From Paracoccaceae bacterium (lineage in GTDB: Bacteria; Pseudomonadota; Alphaproteobacteria; Rhodobacterales; Rhodobacteraceae), in assembly GCA_027489355.1 (NCBI GenBank), contig JAIXZY010000050.1, forward strand, positions 1 to 33,139: 33,139 nucleotides of DNA. Reading direction: 5' to 3'. This document shows, in pieces, positions 2,470 through 6,509 of the stretch. Position 1 is the first letter of the stretch, and each line of letters opens with the position of its first letter. The position numbers and the translations under genes are program-made. The notes under the pieces were generated by a model. That model was not told the origin of the DNA and made no database searches. It saw nothing but the letters and a program-made list of their open reading frames with translations.

Positions 2470-4716
2470 ATGCCCGAACGGACCGAAAGCGAAAGCCGCA
2501 AGCTCCTCCGCCGCCTGCGCGACGTGCTGTCGGTCTCGGGCGAAGGTCAGGACCGCCTGGACCGCATCACCCACCTGATCGCCGACAGCATGGGGACCGA
2601 GGTCTGCTCGATCTACCTCTTCCGCGATCCCGAAACTTTGGAACTGTGTGCGACCGAGGGTCTGAAGAAGGAGGCCGTCCACCAGACACGGATGAAGCTG
2701 GGCGAGGGCCTCGTCGGCCGCGTGGCGCGCACCGGCCAGCCGGTGAATACCGCCGACGCGCCGTCTGAAAAGGGCTTCCGCTACATGCCTGAAACGGGGG
2801 AAGAGCTGTTCTCCTCCTTCCTCGGCGTGCCGATCCAGCGGGTGGGCGAAAAGCTTGGCGTGCTGGTCGTACAGTCCAAGACCGCCCGCCAGTTTTCGGA
2901 AGACGAGATCTACGCGCTGGACGTGGTCGCGATGGTCGTGGCCGAGATGACAGAGCTTGGTGCCTTCACCTCGGGCGAAGGCGCGATGCGGGCGCTGCAC
3001 AAGCAGCCGGTGATGTTCCGCGCCACCTCTGGGCAGGAGGGCGCGGCAGAAGGCCGGGTCTGGCTGCACGAACCCCGTGTCGTCATCACCAACCCCGTGG
3101 CCGACGACCCGCTGACCGAAATCGACCGCATCAAGGCTGCGGTGGGTGAATTGCGCGTCTCGATCGACGACCTGCTCGAGGCCGAGCAGCTGGACAAGGA
3201 ACAGAAGCAGGTCCTGGAAGCCTACCGGATGTTCGCCCATTCCCGCGGCTGGCTGCGGCGGATGGAGGAAGACATCATGCGCGGCCTGTCCGCCGAGGCC
3301 GCGGTTGAAAAGGAACAATCCGCCGCCCGCGCCCGGATGGAACAGGTCCCCGACCAGTACCTGCGCGAACGGCTGCAGGACCTTGACGACCTGTCGAACC
3401 GGCTCCTGCGCATCCTCACCGGCCAGGGCAAGGACACCGGGGCCGAGATGCCGGACAACCCGGTCCTCGTCGCCCGCAACATCGGCCCGGCGGAACTGCT
3501 GGACTATGGCCGCAAGCTGAAGGGCGTCGTGCTGGAAGAAGGCTCGGTCGGCAGCCACGCCGCCATCGTGGCCCGCGCATTGGCGATCCCGCTGGTCATC
3601 AATGCTTCGCGCGTGGTGGCCGAGGCGCTGAACGGCGACCCGATCCTGGTGGACGGCGATCAGGGTGTGGTCCACCTGCGCCCCGAGGAAACCGTCGCGC
3701 GCGCCTTCCGCGACAAGATCGCCATGCAGGCCGAGGCGCAGAAACGCTATGCCAGCCTTCGCGGCCTGCCCGCGACCACGCTCTGCGGCACCACGATCTC
3801 GCTGCACATGAACGCGGGTCTGATGGCCGACCTTCCCAGCCTCGAAGGCTCGGGCGCCGATGGCGTCGGCCTCTTCCGCACCGAACTGCAATTCCTGATC
3901 CGGTCGAAGATGCCGCAGCGCGCAGAACTTGCGCGTCTCTACGCCCGCGTGATGGACGCGGCCAAGGGCAAGCGGGTCGCCTTCCGGACGCTCGACATCG
4001 GGTCGGACAAGGTCCTGCCCTACATGAAGCCGCCCGAGGAACCCAACCCCGCGATGGGCTGGCGCGCGGTGCGCGTGGGCCTCGACAAGCCGGGCGTGTT
4101 GCGGATGCAGGTGCAGGCCCTGATCCGCGCCGCCGCGGGCCGTCCCCTGACGATCATGTTCCCGCTGATCACCGAGATGCGCGAATTTCAGGCCGCCCGC
4201 GCGCATGTCCTTCGCGAGCTCCATCGCGAGAAATCGCTGGGTCACGCGGTCCCGGAACGGATCGAAATCGGCGCGATGATGGAAACGCCCAGCCTGGCCT
4301 ACGCACCGAAAAGCTTTTTCGAGCTGACGGATTTCATCTCGGTCGGGGGCAACGACCTGAAGCAGTTCTTCTTTGCCGCCGACCGCGAGAACGAACTCGT
4401 CCGCCGCCGCTATGACACGCTGAACCTGACCTTCCTTGCCTTCCTGGAGCAGATCATCGCCCGCTGCGCCGAGACCGAGACCCCGCTTTCCTTCTGTGGC
4501 GAGGATGCCGGACGCCCGATCGAGGCGCTGGCTCTGGCCGCCATCGGTTTCCGCTCGCTGTCGATGCGTCCCGCCTCGGTGGGTCCGGTCAAGGCGCTTT
4601 TGCGCAAGGTGGACCTGACCGAGGCCCGCGCCGTGATCGACCGCGCCCGCGACGCAGGCGAGGAAAGCGCGCGATCAATGCTGATGGACTGGCTCGCCAC
4701 CCAGACGACGGCCTGA
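2470..4716 (+). CDS. ptsP: phosphoenolpyruvate-protein phosphotransferase of the nitrogen PTS (EI-Ntr)
   Basis: This 748-residue protein is enzyme I of the nitrogen phosphotransferase system, which passes phosphate from PEP to NPr and then to EIIA-Ntr in the cytoplasm as a regulatory relay for nitrogen and potassium metabolism. An N-terminal GAF domain (about residues 20-165) distinguishes PtsP from sugar-type PtsI. The EI N-terminal domain follows, then the phosphohistidine segment GSHAAIVARA with the acceptor His at residue 363. The PEP-binding barrel spans about residues 430-720 and includes GVGLFRTE, EIGAMMETP and the catalytic-region Cys676 in SFCGEDAGRP. All key residues seem intact and the length is normal. 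No ptsO or ptsN is in the window. An HPr-kinase-fold gene converges on it from downstream, but that protein belongs to another branch of the family. Confidence 0.95.
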   Translation: MPERTESESRKLLRRLRDVLSVSGEGQDRLDRITHLIADSMGTEVCSIYLFRDPETLELCATEGLKKEAVHQTRMKLGEGLVGRVARTGQPVNTADAPSEKGFRYMPETGEELFSSFLGVPIQRVGEKLGVLVVQSKTARQFSEDEIYALDVVAMVVAEMTELGAFTSGEGAMRALHKQPVMFRATSGQEGAAEGRVWLHEPRVVITNPVADDPLTEIDRIKAAVGELRVSIDDLLEAEQLDKEQKQVLEAYRMFAHSRGWLRRMEEDIMRGLSAEAAVEKEQSAARARMEQVPDQYLRERLQDLDDLSNRLLRILTGQGKDTGAEMPDNPVLVARNIGPAELLDYGRKLKGVVLEEGSVGSHAAIVARALAIPLVINASRVVAEALNGDPILVDGDQGVVHLRPEETVARAFRDKIAMQAEAQKRYASLRGLPATTLCGTTISLHMNAGLMADLPSLEGSGADGVGLFRTELQFLIRSKMPQRAELARLYARVMDAAKGKRVAFRTLDIGSDKVLPYMKPPEEPNPAMGWRAVRVGLDKPGVLRMQVQALIRAAAGRPLTIMFPLITEMREFQAARAHVLRELHREKSLGHAVPERIEIGAMMETPSLAYAPKSFFELTDFISVGGNDLKQFFFAADRENELVRRRYDTLNLTFLAFLEQIIARCAETETPLSFCGEDAGRPIEALALAAIGFRSLSMRPASVGPVKALLRKVDLTEARAVIDRARDAGEESARSMLMDWLATQTTA

Positions 4717-4729
4717 CGCGGGACCGGCC

Positions 4730-4749
4730 CCGGCCGGCCGGCCGGCCGG
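4730..4749. repeat. (CCGG)5 tandem tetranucleotide repeat
   Basis: Five uninterrupted CCGG units lie 14 bases after the ptsP stop, flanked by further GGCC-rich sequence. The tract is self-complementary throughout, so it can fold into several alternative hairpins. It may help end ptsP transcription or be a slippage-prone microsatellite. Confidence 0.8.
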
Positions 4750-4802
4750 CGCCCCGACCGCACCGGGTTCGGTCTATCGAAATGCTTGTGCTTGATCCGT
4801 GT

Positions 4803-4821
4803 CCGGAACCGCCCGTTCCGG
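4803..4821. terminator. inverted repeat downstream of ptsP
   Basis: CCGGAAC (4803-4809) and GTTCCGG (4815-4821) form a perfect 7-bp stem with a 5-base loop. It lies in the 240-base convergent gap between ptsP and the kinase gene. No T-run follows, so terminator function is only suggested. The rest of this gap (4822-4935) holds nothing I recognise. Confidence 0.35.
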
Positions 4822-4935
4822 CCCGCGATTGAGGAGCTGATTTCCCAGGTCTAAGGCCCGGCCGAGCCTCGGCAAGTCCTTAAGAGACCCTGAATCTCCG
4901 CATGTAACCACTTGATTTCATGGTTTTGGCGAGAG

Positions 4936-4956: not shown

Positions 4957-6174
4957 TCACGCCGCGTCCGGCGGCGCGACCAGACCGGCCTCGGACAGCC
5001 GGTCCAATAGCGCGGCAAGGTCGCTGCGGAGCCGCTCTGGTGGGGTGTCGGGGAAGGCCTCCGCCAGCGCCGCCACCAGTTCATCCGGCGTGGCCGGGTC
5101 CTCCAGCATCGCCCAGATCGCCGCGGCCAGCGGGTCCATCCGCTGGATCGCCCGCCCGGCAGGGTCGGCCAGATAGAGCACCTCGCCGATCCACCGCCCC
5201 ACGCTGCCCGCCCGCTGCGAAAGCGGCCCGATCGGAGCCGGGGGCCGGTCGGCGTAGTCCGGCACCCGAAACCGCCGCTCGCTGCCTTTGGCGGCCCCTG
5301 GCAGGGCTGGCCCTGCGGCGAACCCGGCCTGCAGACACCGCACCGCCTCGTCGAGGTCCGAATAGACCAGCCGCCGGATCGGGATCGCGGCCAGCATGGC
5401 CGCGATCACTTCAAGCACGTCGGCCGAATGCCGGTCCCGGGTGAAATTCTGGTGCAGCAAGGCATCCATTGCCGCGTCCAAGGCCACCGGGTCCAGACGC
5501 GCCGGAACAGGCTCGTCACGGCGGTCGAGCAGCACGCAGGCCCCAAGAGGCAGGGTCTCACCATGCGGGGGCAGGTCAGGCAGCGCAAGGTAGTGGTATT
5601 GCCGGTTTCGCGGCCCTGCGTCCATTTCGGACCAGGTGCGGAAGTCGTCGGGCAGGCTTTCGGGCAGCGGCAGTCGCAGACGTGGCGCGATACCCGTGGC
5701 ACGCGCGAGGGGCGGGCCGTCCTGTGGGAAGGTCAGCGGCACCACGTCATCGCTGAACACCCGATGCCCGGCCCTGGCCAGCGCGACGGTCAGCGTGCTT
5801 TTCCCCGCGCGGCGGACGTTCGGGAAGACCACCAGCCGCCCGGCAAACTCTACCCCTGCAGCGTGGAGGCTGATCAGCCGATCGTCCGACTGCGGGAGCG
5901 CCACCGACAGGCTTGCCAAGGCATCACAGACGGCGTTGAGAGCGTCCCAGCTCTGCGCCGGCCTGTCCTCGACATGGCTCTCGCAGCGAAACACCTGCCC
6001 ATTGGGCGTGTCGGAAATCGTGAAGAAGGGCGCGGCATGCCGGGTTGGCAGGACACGGAACGGCCAGCCGGGAACGAGTTCGGGAAGCAGCGAGAGCACG
6101 GCATCCGCACCGTCCAGCCGCAGCGGCGCCGTGACGCCCTTGAAGAAGACATCCCTTGCCACCCGTCGCACCAC
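4957..6174 (-). CDS. HPr-kinase-like protein fused to a C-terminal PqqD-like domain
   Basis: From the GTG at 6174 this encodes 405 residues. Residues about 100-290 look like the HPr kinase/phosphorylase fold: LHAAG with a conserved-type His at 104, a P-loop FPNVRRAGKST (117-127), and an acidic SDD (141-143) where the family has its Mg/ATP-binding Asp. The P-loop lacks the usual first glycine but keeps AGKST. Residues about 321-401 resemble PqqD, a small winged-helix-like fold that binds leader peptides in RiPP pathways, with the pattern Leu-tyr-leu, RMDPLAAAIW and a closing LSEAGLV. GTG at 6174 follows a purine-rich GAGGGGGGAAG. A TTG at 6246 would give 429 residues overlapping the peptide gene but has no visible ribosome site. 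The upstream partner is the Ser/Thr-rich peptide gene. By family analogy it may bind the peptide and phosphorylate it. That role is inferred. Confidence 0.75.
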   Translation of the reverse strand: MVRRVARDVFFKGVTAPLRLDGADAVLSLLPELVPGWPFRVLPTRHAAPFFTISDTPNGQVFRCESHVEDRPAQSWDALNAVCDALASLSVALPQSDDRLISLHAAGVEFAGRLVVFPNVRRAGKSTLTVALARAGHRVFSDDVVPLTFPQDGPPLARATGIAPRLRLPLPESLPDDFRTWSEMDAGPRNRQYHYLALPDLPPHGETLPLGACVLLDRRDEPVPARLDPVALDAAMDALLHQNFTRDRHSADVLEVIAAMLAAIPIRRLVYSDLDEAVRCLQAGFAAGPALPGAAKGSERRFRVPDYADRPPAPIGPLSQRAGSVGRWIGEVLYLADPAGRAIQRMDPLAAAIWAMLEDPATPDELVAALAEAFPDTPPERLRSDLAALLDRLSEAGLVAPPDAA

Positions 6175-6224
6175 CGTCTTCCCCCCTCGGCCCGCTGGCC
6201 GGCCAAAGGGGGATGCTTCCGCTT

Positions 6225-6509
6225 TTATGGGGTGGTCGTGCCGCAACCCGCGTCATCGTCGCCTGGACCCGAGCAGGTGCTCGGACTGGTGGTCCTGGAC
6301 GGCGCTGTCGGTGCGGTGGTCTTGCTTGGCGCCGTCGTCGCACTCGAGTTGCTGGACGAGCTGGACGAACTTGATCCGCTGGAACCGCTGCCTGCCTGCG
6401 CCACGCTGACAGTGGTCATCGCGGGCGCCGCATAGGCCGCCAGAGCAAGCGCGCCAATCCGGCCAAGCGCCATCCGACGGGAGAGAACGCTGTCCTTCGG
6501 GTCTTTCAT
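6225..6509 (-). CDS. small Tat-type exported Ser/Thr-rich peptide, putative substrate of the kinase/PqqD protein
   Basis: This encodes 94 residues with no family I recognise. The N-terminus reads as a twin-arginine signal: SRRMALGR (R11, R12), a hydrophobic stretch to about residue 37, and a likely cleavage after AQA (residue 39). The predicted 55-residue mature part has 18 Ser and 11 Thr, including eight consecutive Ser (46-53), then TTAPS/TTAPT/TTSPS-like repeats, two Cys (79 and 89) around GPGDDDAG, and the end GTTTP. Start ATG 6509 follows AAGGAAA at good spacing. The kinase/PqqD gene begins 50 bases downstream (GTG), or overlaps by 22 bases if TTG 6246 is used, so the two are probably co-transcribed. 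It could be a modified RiPP-like precursor or an unmodified surface peptide. The serine codons vary, so the tract is not a simple triplet expansion. Confidence 0.7.
   Translation of the reverse strand: MKDPKDSVLSRRMALGRIGALALAAYAAPAMTTVSVAQAGSGSSGSSSSSSSSNSSATTAPSKTTAPTAPSRTTSPSTCSGPGDDDAGCGTTTP

Follow-up and report, generated by a model that had tools for sequence, protein, structure and literature searches.

A serine-rich Tat peptide and an HprK-like kinase fused to a PqqD domain: a conserved gene pair and candidate leader-guided phosphorylation system

HprK-like kinases that modify peptides have been described for the linear polyphosphorylated peptides (LPPs; Popov et al. 2026, PMC13381572) and the phosphorylated lasso peptides (paeninodin PadeK/ThcoK/SyanK, pseudomycoidin PsmK; PMC9266682). 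Here we report a related arrangement in the window, i.e. the whole 33,139-nt stretch of DNA analysed (assembly GCA_027489355.1 of a Paracoccaceae bacterium, contig JAIXZY010000050.1, positions 1 to 33,139), in which a gene for a small protein with a twin-arginine translocation (Tat) signal and a gene for an HprK-like kinase with a C-terminal PqqD-like domain lie next to each other on the reverse strand (4957..6509). LPP systems share with this pair the HprK-like kinase, the lasso-type recognition element (RRE) of ribosomally synthesized and post-translationally modified peptides (RiPPs), a YxxPx[hydrophobic] leader, a variable linear core and, as far as inspection by eye tells, the lack of a macrolactam cyclase; they differ by a discrete instead of a kinase-fused RRE, by a leader cut by an SpI-like peptidase instead of a Tat signal, and by a nucleoside triphosphate (NTP) transferase and an MsbA-like exporter as core genes, where the window has a two-gene unit (PMC13381572). 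LPPs have been called restricted to Bacillota (PMC13381572). The lasso-peptide kinases resemble the window kinase in their His-Lys-Asp-Asp motif and their RRE-bearing pathways, but act on a C-terminal Ser (PMC9266682). Inspection by eye, without profile search, revealed beside the window pair no SpI-like peptidase, NTP transferase or MsbA-like transporter, and no B2 peptidase, asparagine-synthetase-like cyclase or ATP-binding cassette (ABC) exporter. A survey of 28 loci was made in the same manner (flanks of about 9-10 kb, with crude open reading frame (ORF) calls that missed the kinase in 6 of the 28); the three LPP genes were not seen in clusters common to at least 3 of the loci, and neither the B2 peptidase nor the cyclase was seen to be shared among them.

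Further parallels concern single components. The HPr-rel-A/SynChlorMet cassettes (TIGR04352, TIGR04353, TIGR04248, TIGR04249) likewise combine, by their model names, an HprK-related kinase with a PqqD-like protein, whereas the window protein is a fusion, adjoins a Tat peptide and falls well short of the TIGR04352 cut-off (50.6 versus 200 bits). Bufferins and other MNIO RiPPs carry an export signal that an RRE-bearing partner has been suggested to mask or recognise ahead of export; however, this signal is Sec rather than Tat, and an iron enzyme with mostly Cys chemistry stands in place of the kinase (PMC12452194). The Tat chaperones DmsD and TorD bind the hydrophobic part of Tat signals before export (PMC3316669). 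Among the open-licence PubMed Central papers listed, none describes, judging by its title and the opening of its abstract, a fused RRE-HprK kinase or an RRE-read Tat leader, and the word "kinase" is absent from the texts of RRE-Finder and a 2025 RRE paper. The parts of the system are of known kinds; their combination looks new.

Homologues were collected by the kinase alone and duplicates merged: loci whose kinases are identical over the first 150 aligned residues were counted once, and kinase pieces were excluded if their E-value exceeded 1e-10 or if they did not cover profile positions 110-150. The resulting 92 distinct loci comprise 60 with a fused RRE-kinase, 20 with split genes and 12 with no PqqD seen. 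After setting aside two fused and two split loci with less than 600 nt upstream, an ORF with the pattern RR.{6,26}Y..P ending near the kinase start was present directly upstream in all 58 remaining fused loci, where the motif reads RR...YxxPx[LMFVI], and in 6 of the 12 loci with no PqqD seen. By comparison, only 17 of 1606 control segments of DNA flanking the named loci hold an ORF with RR..YxxP, one of them being a real family member. The linkage of leader peptide and fused kinase is not a matter of chance. The earlier note on this DNA, made from the window sequence alone, would have been undermined by fused genes lacking such a neighbour; the leader peptide was found at 58 of 58, and every readable core at a fused locus contains at least seven Ser, as the eight Ser-poorest cores all adjoin split kinases or kinases with no PqqD seen.

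In a tree of 88 kinase domains, a fully supported branch separates 73 kinases from 15 others. Of the 73, 72 have a leader protein, L025 and L147 among them, and one lies where its contig ends. The 15 (14 of them split and one without a visible PqqD) divide into 4 with a leader, 9 without and 2 unknown. L024, L025 and L147 received the label "with" by hand. Among the misses of the scripted search, L025 does have a peptide upstream and L024 a leader protein downstream, and the set-aside locus L147 also has its leader protein downstream. L027-L030 are distant, and L027 encodes an RR-bearing Gly/Ser-rich protein without YxxP. In genome G211 (L054/L055) the kinase-PqqD gene lies in two frames with a leader peptide upstream; it was dropped from the counts.

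The distribution among genomes is consistent with joint inheritance. The 34 named loci from GTDB genomes are mostly labelled Tabrizicola, Rhodobacter or other Rhodobacteraceae, which makes Tabrizicola the most probable genus of the window, and the linkage holds in several families and in metagenome-assembled genomes (MAGs) labelled Alpha-, Beta- and Gammaproteobacteria. The kinase occurs in 23 of 295 family genomes and a leader-profile match in 25, including all 23 kinase carriers, hits which are partly by construction because the profile was built partly from the tested genomes; the near absence of the leader from the other 272 genomes does not result from this construction. The two exceptions among the 272 are G283, whose contig ends 476 nt after the match, and G351, whose weak partial match (17 positions) contains no YxxP leader on reading. 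In the genus of the window the leader is found in exactly those 10 of 21 genomes that carry the kinase. The neighbouring acyl-CoA synthetase was matched in 27 genomes, with the kinase directly downstream in 10, a ptsP match within 76-398 nt and no kinase in 6, and neither of them in the stretch read in the remaining 11, a comparison which scored kinase and ptsP and not the peptide itself. No leader was found anywhere in the empty-site genomes G001, G002, G014 and G020 (G023 was not searched for it). G007 has the usual site empty and a divergent kinase-PqqD pair elsewhere (L020, L240), and G022 carries the usual copy (L008) plus a second one (C3:693387-694613) with 34% identity. From the co-occurrence in the genus and the empty sites it follows that the two genes are most likely gained and lost together, and the data support the view of peptide and fused kinase as a conserved two-gene unit.

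The peptide gene (6225..6509; all window features given here lie on the reverse strand) was read as an ORF with an ATG start encoding 94 residues. Its leader (residues 1-39, MKDPKDSVLSRRMALGRIGALALAAYAAPAMTTVSVAQA, 6393..6509) contains the twin arginine R11-R12 (6474..6479) and ends with Ala-Gln-Ala (residues 37-39), and the predicted mature core (residues 40-94, 6228..6392) holds 18 Ser and 11 Thr, i.e. 29 in 55 residues, the total stated in the earlier note. A sigma-70-like promoter was not found between 4700 and 6900. An origin as chance ORF or antisense artefact was rejected on account of the synonymous-rich evolution of the leader: codon comparison of 14 loci of the genus, summed over pairs, gave 1029 synonymous versus 260 non-synonymous single-base differences, and the kinase P-loop region, compared likewise, 1410 versus 235. 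With a twin-arginine signal, a hydrophobic region and an Ala-x-Ala site the peptide has the features of a Tat substrate, and TatC is encoded in the same genome.

The leader carries, in addition, YAAPAM (Y26 to M31, 6417..6434), which conforms to YxxPx[hydrophobic] and is presumed to be an RRE-binding motif from its likeness to lasso and LPP leaders; discrete RREs of the lasso and LPP pathways bind the motif [Y/W]xxPx[hydrophobic] (PMC13381572). As measured by script, the Tyr follows the first Arg at a distance of 15 positions in 71 of 73 upstream leaders, the outliers being L052 (read from its second RR; 15 from the first) and L058 (18). While YxxP itself was part of the search pattern behind these 73 leaders, the residue at Y+5 (counted from the motif Tyr) was outside it and is Leu, Met, Phe, Val or Ile in 73 of 73. 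Ala-x-Ala as signal peptidase site is found at Y+11 to Y+13 in 62 of the 73, and YxxP does not occur in the signal region of any of the 30 Tat signals taken as controls from related genomes, a set that includes several mutual orthologues. These features suggest that the Tat signal of the peptide probably doubles as an RRE leader, and the guess in the earlier note that the Tat leader is the bound segment has thereby gained a candidate binding motif. The cores have diverged. Ser occurs in all 72 readable cores, Thr is absent from 15 of them, and 69 of the 72 have their first Ser between Y+14 and Y+21. Cys residues close many cores; the window peptide has a C-terminal CSGPGDDDAGC motif (C79-C89, 6243..6275), and the cores of the Tabrizicola group end similarly, with motifs like CSGPTDDDAGC.

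The kinase gene follows after a 50-nt gap (6175..6224) between the peptide stop and a GTG codon. A TTG start at 6246, as assumed in the earlier note, is possible (4957-6246) and would create an overlap of 22 nt with the peptide gene; we favour the GTG at 6174 because the alignment of homologues begins near it and because it is preceded by the Shine-Dalgarno-like AGGGGGGAAG within the gap. The protein then spans 4957..6174 and 405 residues. In an alignment of 59 rows His104 (5863..5865, presumed catalytic), Gly124-Lys125-Ser126 of the P-loop PNVRRAGKS (residues 118-126, 5797..5823), Asp142-Asp143 (5746..5751), Arg165, Arg167, Tyr193 and Arg218 are invariant, and the conserved residues follow the same order as in the HPr kinase 3tqf. 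A shared His-Lys-Asp-Asp motif, essential by mutation, is documented for the lasso-tailoring kinases (review, PMC9266682). A profile of the 59 homologues matches the solved HPr kinases 3tqf (9e-4), 1ko7 (1.7e-3) and 1jb1 (6e-3), which suggests an HprK fold for the kinase part. At E<=0.001 the N-terminal region of the window protein is matched by no Pfam kinase model, while one of the 59 members gives a weak match; 58 of the 59 match TIGR04352 at this threshold, the best with an E-value of only 1.5e-16. Identification of the window kinase as the ordinary HPr kinase of the phosphotransferase system (PTS) was rejected: the genome of the window contains a separate HPr-kinase-family gene (contig C68), so that the fused protein is probably not the PTS kinase.

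The PqqD/RRE domain comprises residues 337-399 (4978..5166; Pfam PF05402, E=1.6e-13). The HPr-kinase-type P-loop region and C-terminal PqqD-like domain noticed in the earlier note are confirmed. The family profile of this part matches best TbiB1 (1.2e-9), LppB (9x8z; 1.4e-7), TfuB1 (1.6e-5) and PbaB1 (1.9e-5), and gives 0.068 (5sxy) and 0.13 (3g2b) with PqqD chains of the pyrroloquinoline quinone (PQQ) pathway. Of the NCBIfam models run member by member (n=59), those for lasso PqqD match 23 and 6, PQQ PqqD 6 and HPr-rel-A PqqD 5. These profile matches support the assignment of the PqqD part as closest to lasso and LPP RREs. The LppB residues named in PMC13381572 were mapped onto the window protein through the profile alignment. 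Asp385 is the equivalent of LppB D70, the Asp hydrogen-bonding the leader Tyr, and is kept in 58 of 59 members; Asp347 corresponds to LppB Asn33, a position at which all 59 members have Asn or Asp. An Asp equivalent to D70 is also common in other PqqD-like proteins and therefore agrees with this assignment without proving it.

On the basis of these data we propose a two-gene, leader-guided Ser-kinase system, to whose entire chain of binding, phosphorylation and Tat export we assign a probability of roughly two in three. The leader would dock with its YxxPx[LMFVI] segment, 15 residues past the first Arg, into the PqqD/RRE domain, as the motif and the RRE type suggest. While the peptide is still cytoplasmic, the HprK-like domain would phosphorylate Ser of the exposed core, most likely the first Ser residues at Y+14 to Y+21 and possibly the whole Ser-x-x tract. 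A signal occluded by the RRE should be invisible to the Tat translocase; release after modification would permit Tat export, and signal peptidase would presumably cut after Ala-x-Ala. Linear, polyanionic and disordered, the resulting phosphopeptide would reside in the periplasm or outside the cell. Maturation factors that hide an export signal have precedents in the Tat chaperones (PMC3316669) and are suggested for the Sec-exported bufferins (PMC12452194). Two genes would suffice, if this is true, because one enzyme both recognises and modifies the peptide and the Tat system of the cell exports it. RRE-guided peptide modification would then be joined with Tat proofreading, and genes annotated only as "PqqD family protein", as well as the adjoining serine-rich Tat peptides, would acquire a meaning. 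The minimal two-gene system envisaged in the earlier note applies to the window and its genus, but other lineages add PepSY or subtilase genes.

Several observations weigh against this proposal. A kinase of this fold need not be accompanied by the peptide: only 9 of 18 split kinase/PqqD loci have an upstream leader, and among the group of 15 in the tree no leader was found for 9. The eight Ser-poorest cores contain no more than 1 to 6 Ser. Within the clade of the window the P-loop has lost its first Gly, the window protein and many relatives having Asn or Ser there. The general PqqD model of Pfam, too, is matched by all 59 members, and the co-occurrence of leader and kinase is subject to the partial circularity of the leader profile stated above. 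Finally, the Tat model TIGR01409 of NCBIfam matches 10 of 37 leaders and PF10518 one of 37 at E<=1, that of the window being among neither.

A narrower version of the proposed system, with odds that overlap with it, would restrict the modification to one defined Ser that receives a short phosphate chain as by LppK, the Ser/Gly/Pro repeats then being a spacer or matrix segment; we regard this as quite possible, albeit clearly less probable. LppK places several phosphates on S3 only, a Ser near the core N-terminus and, by arithmetic, 18 positions past the leader Tyr (PMC13381572), which speaks against the whole tract as target. The near-constant distance of the first Ser from the Tyr and the very Ser-poor cores beside split kinases point in the same direction. 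However, Ser/Thr recur with a period of three residues across the family (lag 3: 715 pairs versus 339 in shuffles; z 29) in repeats such as SEP, SAA, SRP, TRP and YSRP among many, and their persistence in lineages with different filler residues suggests that the repeats matter, although repeat duplication alone can also yield a period of three. The idea of the earlier note that the Ser/Thr tract as a whole is the target is weakened by the missing Thr in 15 cores and by the eight cores poor in Ser. Alternatively, phospho-Ser might be an intermediate on the way to glycosylation, nucleotidylation or elimination to dehydroalanine followed by Cys addition, which appears unlikely to us. PsmN does add hexoses to phospho-Ser in pseudomycoidin (PMC9266682) and the Cys residues closing many cores would fit, but no NTP transferase, lyase or cyclase was seen by eye in clusters common to at least 3 of the 28 loci; a transferase elsewhere in the genome is possible.

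Another explanation does without phosphate transfer to the peptide: the fused protein would be mainly a dedicated Tat proofreading chaperone whose RRE holds the signal and whose ATPase governs its release. DmsD and TorD bind the H-region of Tat signals (PMC3316669), in which the YxxP motif also sits, and the low-complexity cores offer no single conserved acceptor. Nevertheless, all four catalytic residues of the lasso-tailoring kinases are invariant and no readable core is devoid of Ser, so that we consider this explanation improbable. DmsD and TorD are not known to possess an RRE fold or a kinase in the same chain. Moreover, phosphorylation of Ser is established for related RRE/HprK-like systems (PMC13381572, PMC9266682). 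That an ordinary Tat-exported low-complexity protein and an unrelated kinase are coincidental neighbours inherited together could account for the constant neighbourhood within the genus; given the linkage across several families and proteobacterial classes, the fixed RR-Y spacing despite diverged cores and the joint presence or absence of both genes, it is hardly credible.

The leader is not confined to the small peptides. RR-YxxP leaders also head PepSY-like proteins just downstream of the kinase in several Rhodobacteraceae loci; two of these proteins were run against Pfam and both match PF03413. Such second Tat proteins (L037, L039-L042, L050, L135, L140, L141, L143, L145, L147) have a Ser-rich or Gly-rich linker between the leader and the PepSY-like domain. 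Genes for a response regulator and a sensor kinase often come next: of ten loci read by pattern, 9 have the response regulator adjacent and 8 the sensor kinase, and the tenth locus, L206, has no PepSY protein. The same leader heads S8 subtilases, encoded either next to the pair or at other genomic sites (L195:1992-3333 and the same place in L204, L193:1090-2533, L219:3207-4472, L220:3073-4410); one was run against Pfam (PF00082, E=3.8e-30), and the others were identified by eye or annotation. In G057 (L193) subtilase and kinase are on different contigs. On plasmids of Paracoccus and Shinella the order is an extracytoplasmic function (ECF) sigma factor with a probable anti-sigma factor (by eye), the leader subtilase, the peptide and the kinase, which is annotated there only as "PqqD family protein". 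A subtilase could also be a maturation protease. In a wider reading, which we hold tentatively and at slightly less than even odds, the Tat signal would serve as RiPP leader in a widespread proteobacterial pathway, in which one fused RRE-kinase reads a YxxP barcode within the signal and its phosphorylation of Ser-rich segments in the cytoplasm licenses the Tat export of any protein with this barcode, including the PepSY proteins beside two-component systems and the subtilases beside ECF sigma factors. If true, these would be exported phosphoproteins with envelope functions, and their barcode would provide a handle on whether export signals carry modification instructions.

Some minor observations complete the picture. 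The pair has no match in a phage collection or, in a search reaching close relatives only, in viral contigs, and a phage origin was discarded. An anti-phage system was likewise dismissed, since PADLOC reports nothing for the kinase and, for the low-complexity peptide, only PD-T4-6 (E=0.006). On the Paracoccus marcusii plasmid pCP157_02 (L219, about 4540-4900) the leader peptide is unannotated, with leader and core in different frames, and may be broken or reflect a sequencing error. Split HprK-like kinases and PqqD proteins for which no Tat peptide was found occur at L026, L070-L073, L075, L077, L079, L082-L084; PqqD was not seen in L070, which nonetheless belongs with this group, and L073 and L083 come without upstream sequence. 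The split pairs that were read closely adjoin, by eye, RegBA-like two-component genes, a glycosyltransferase, or an HlyD-like or NTP-transferase-like protein.

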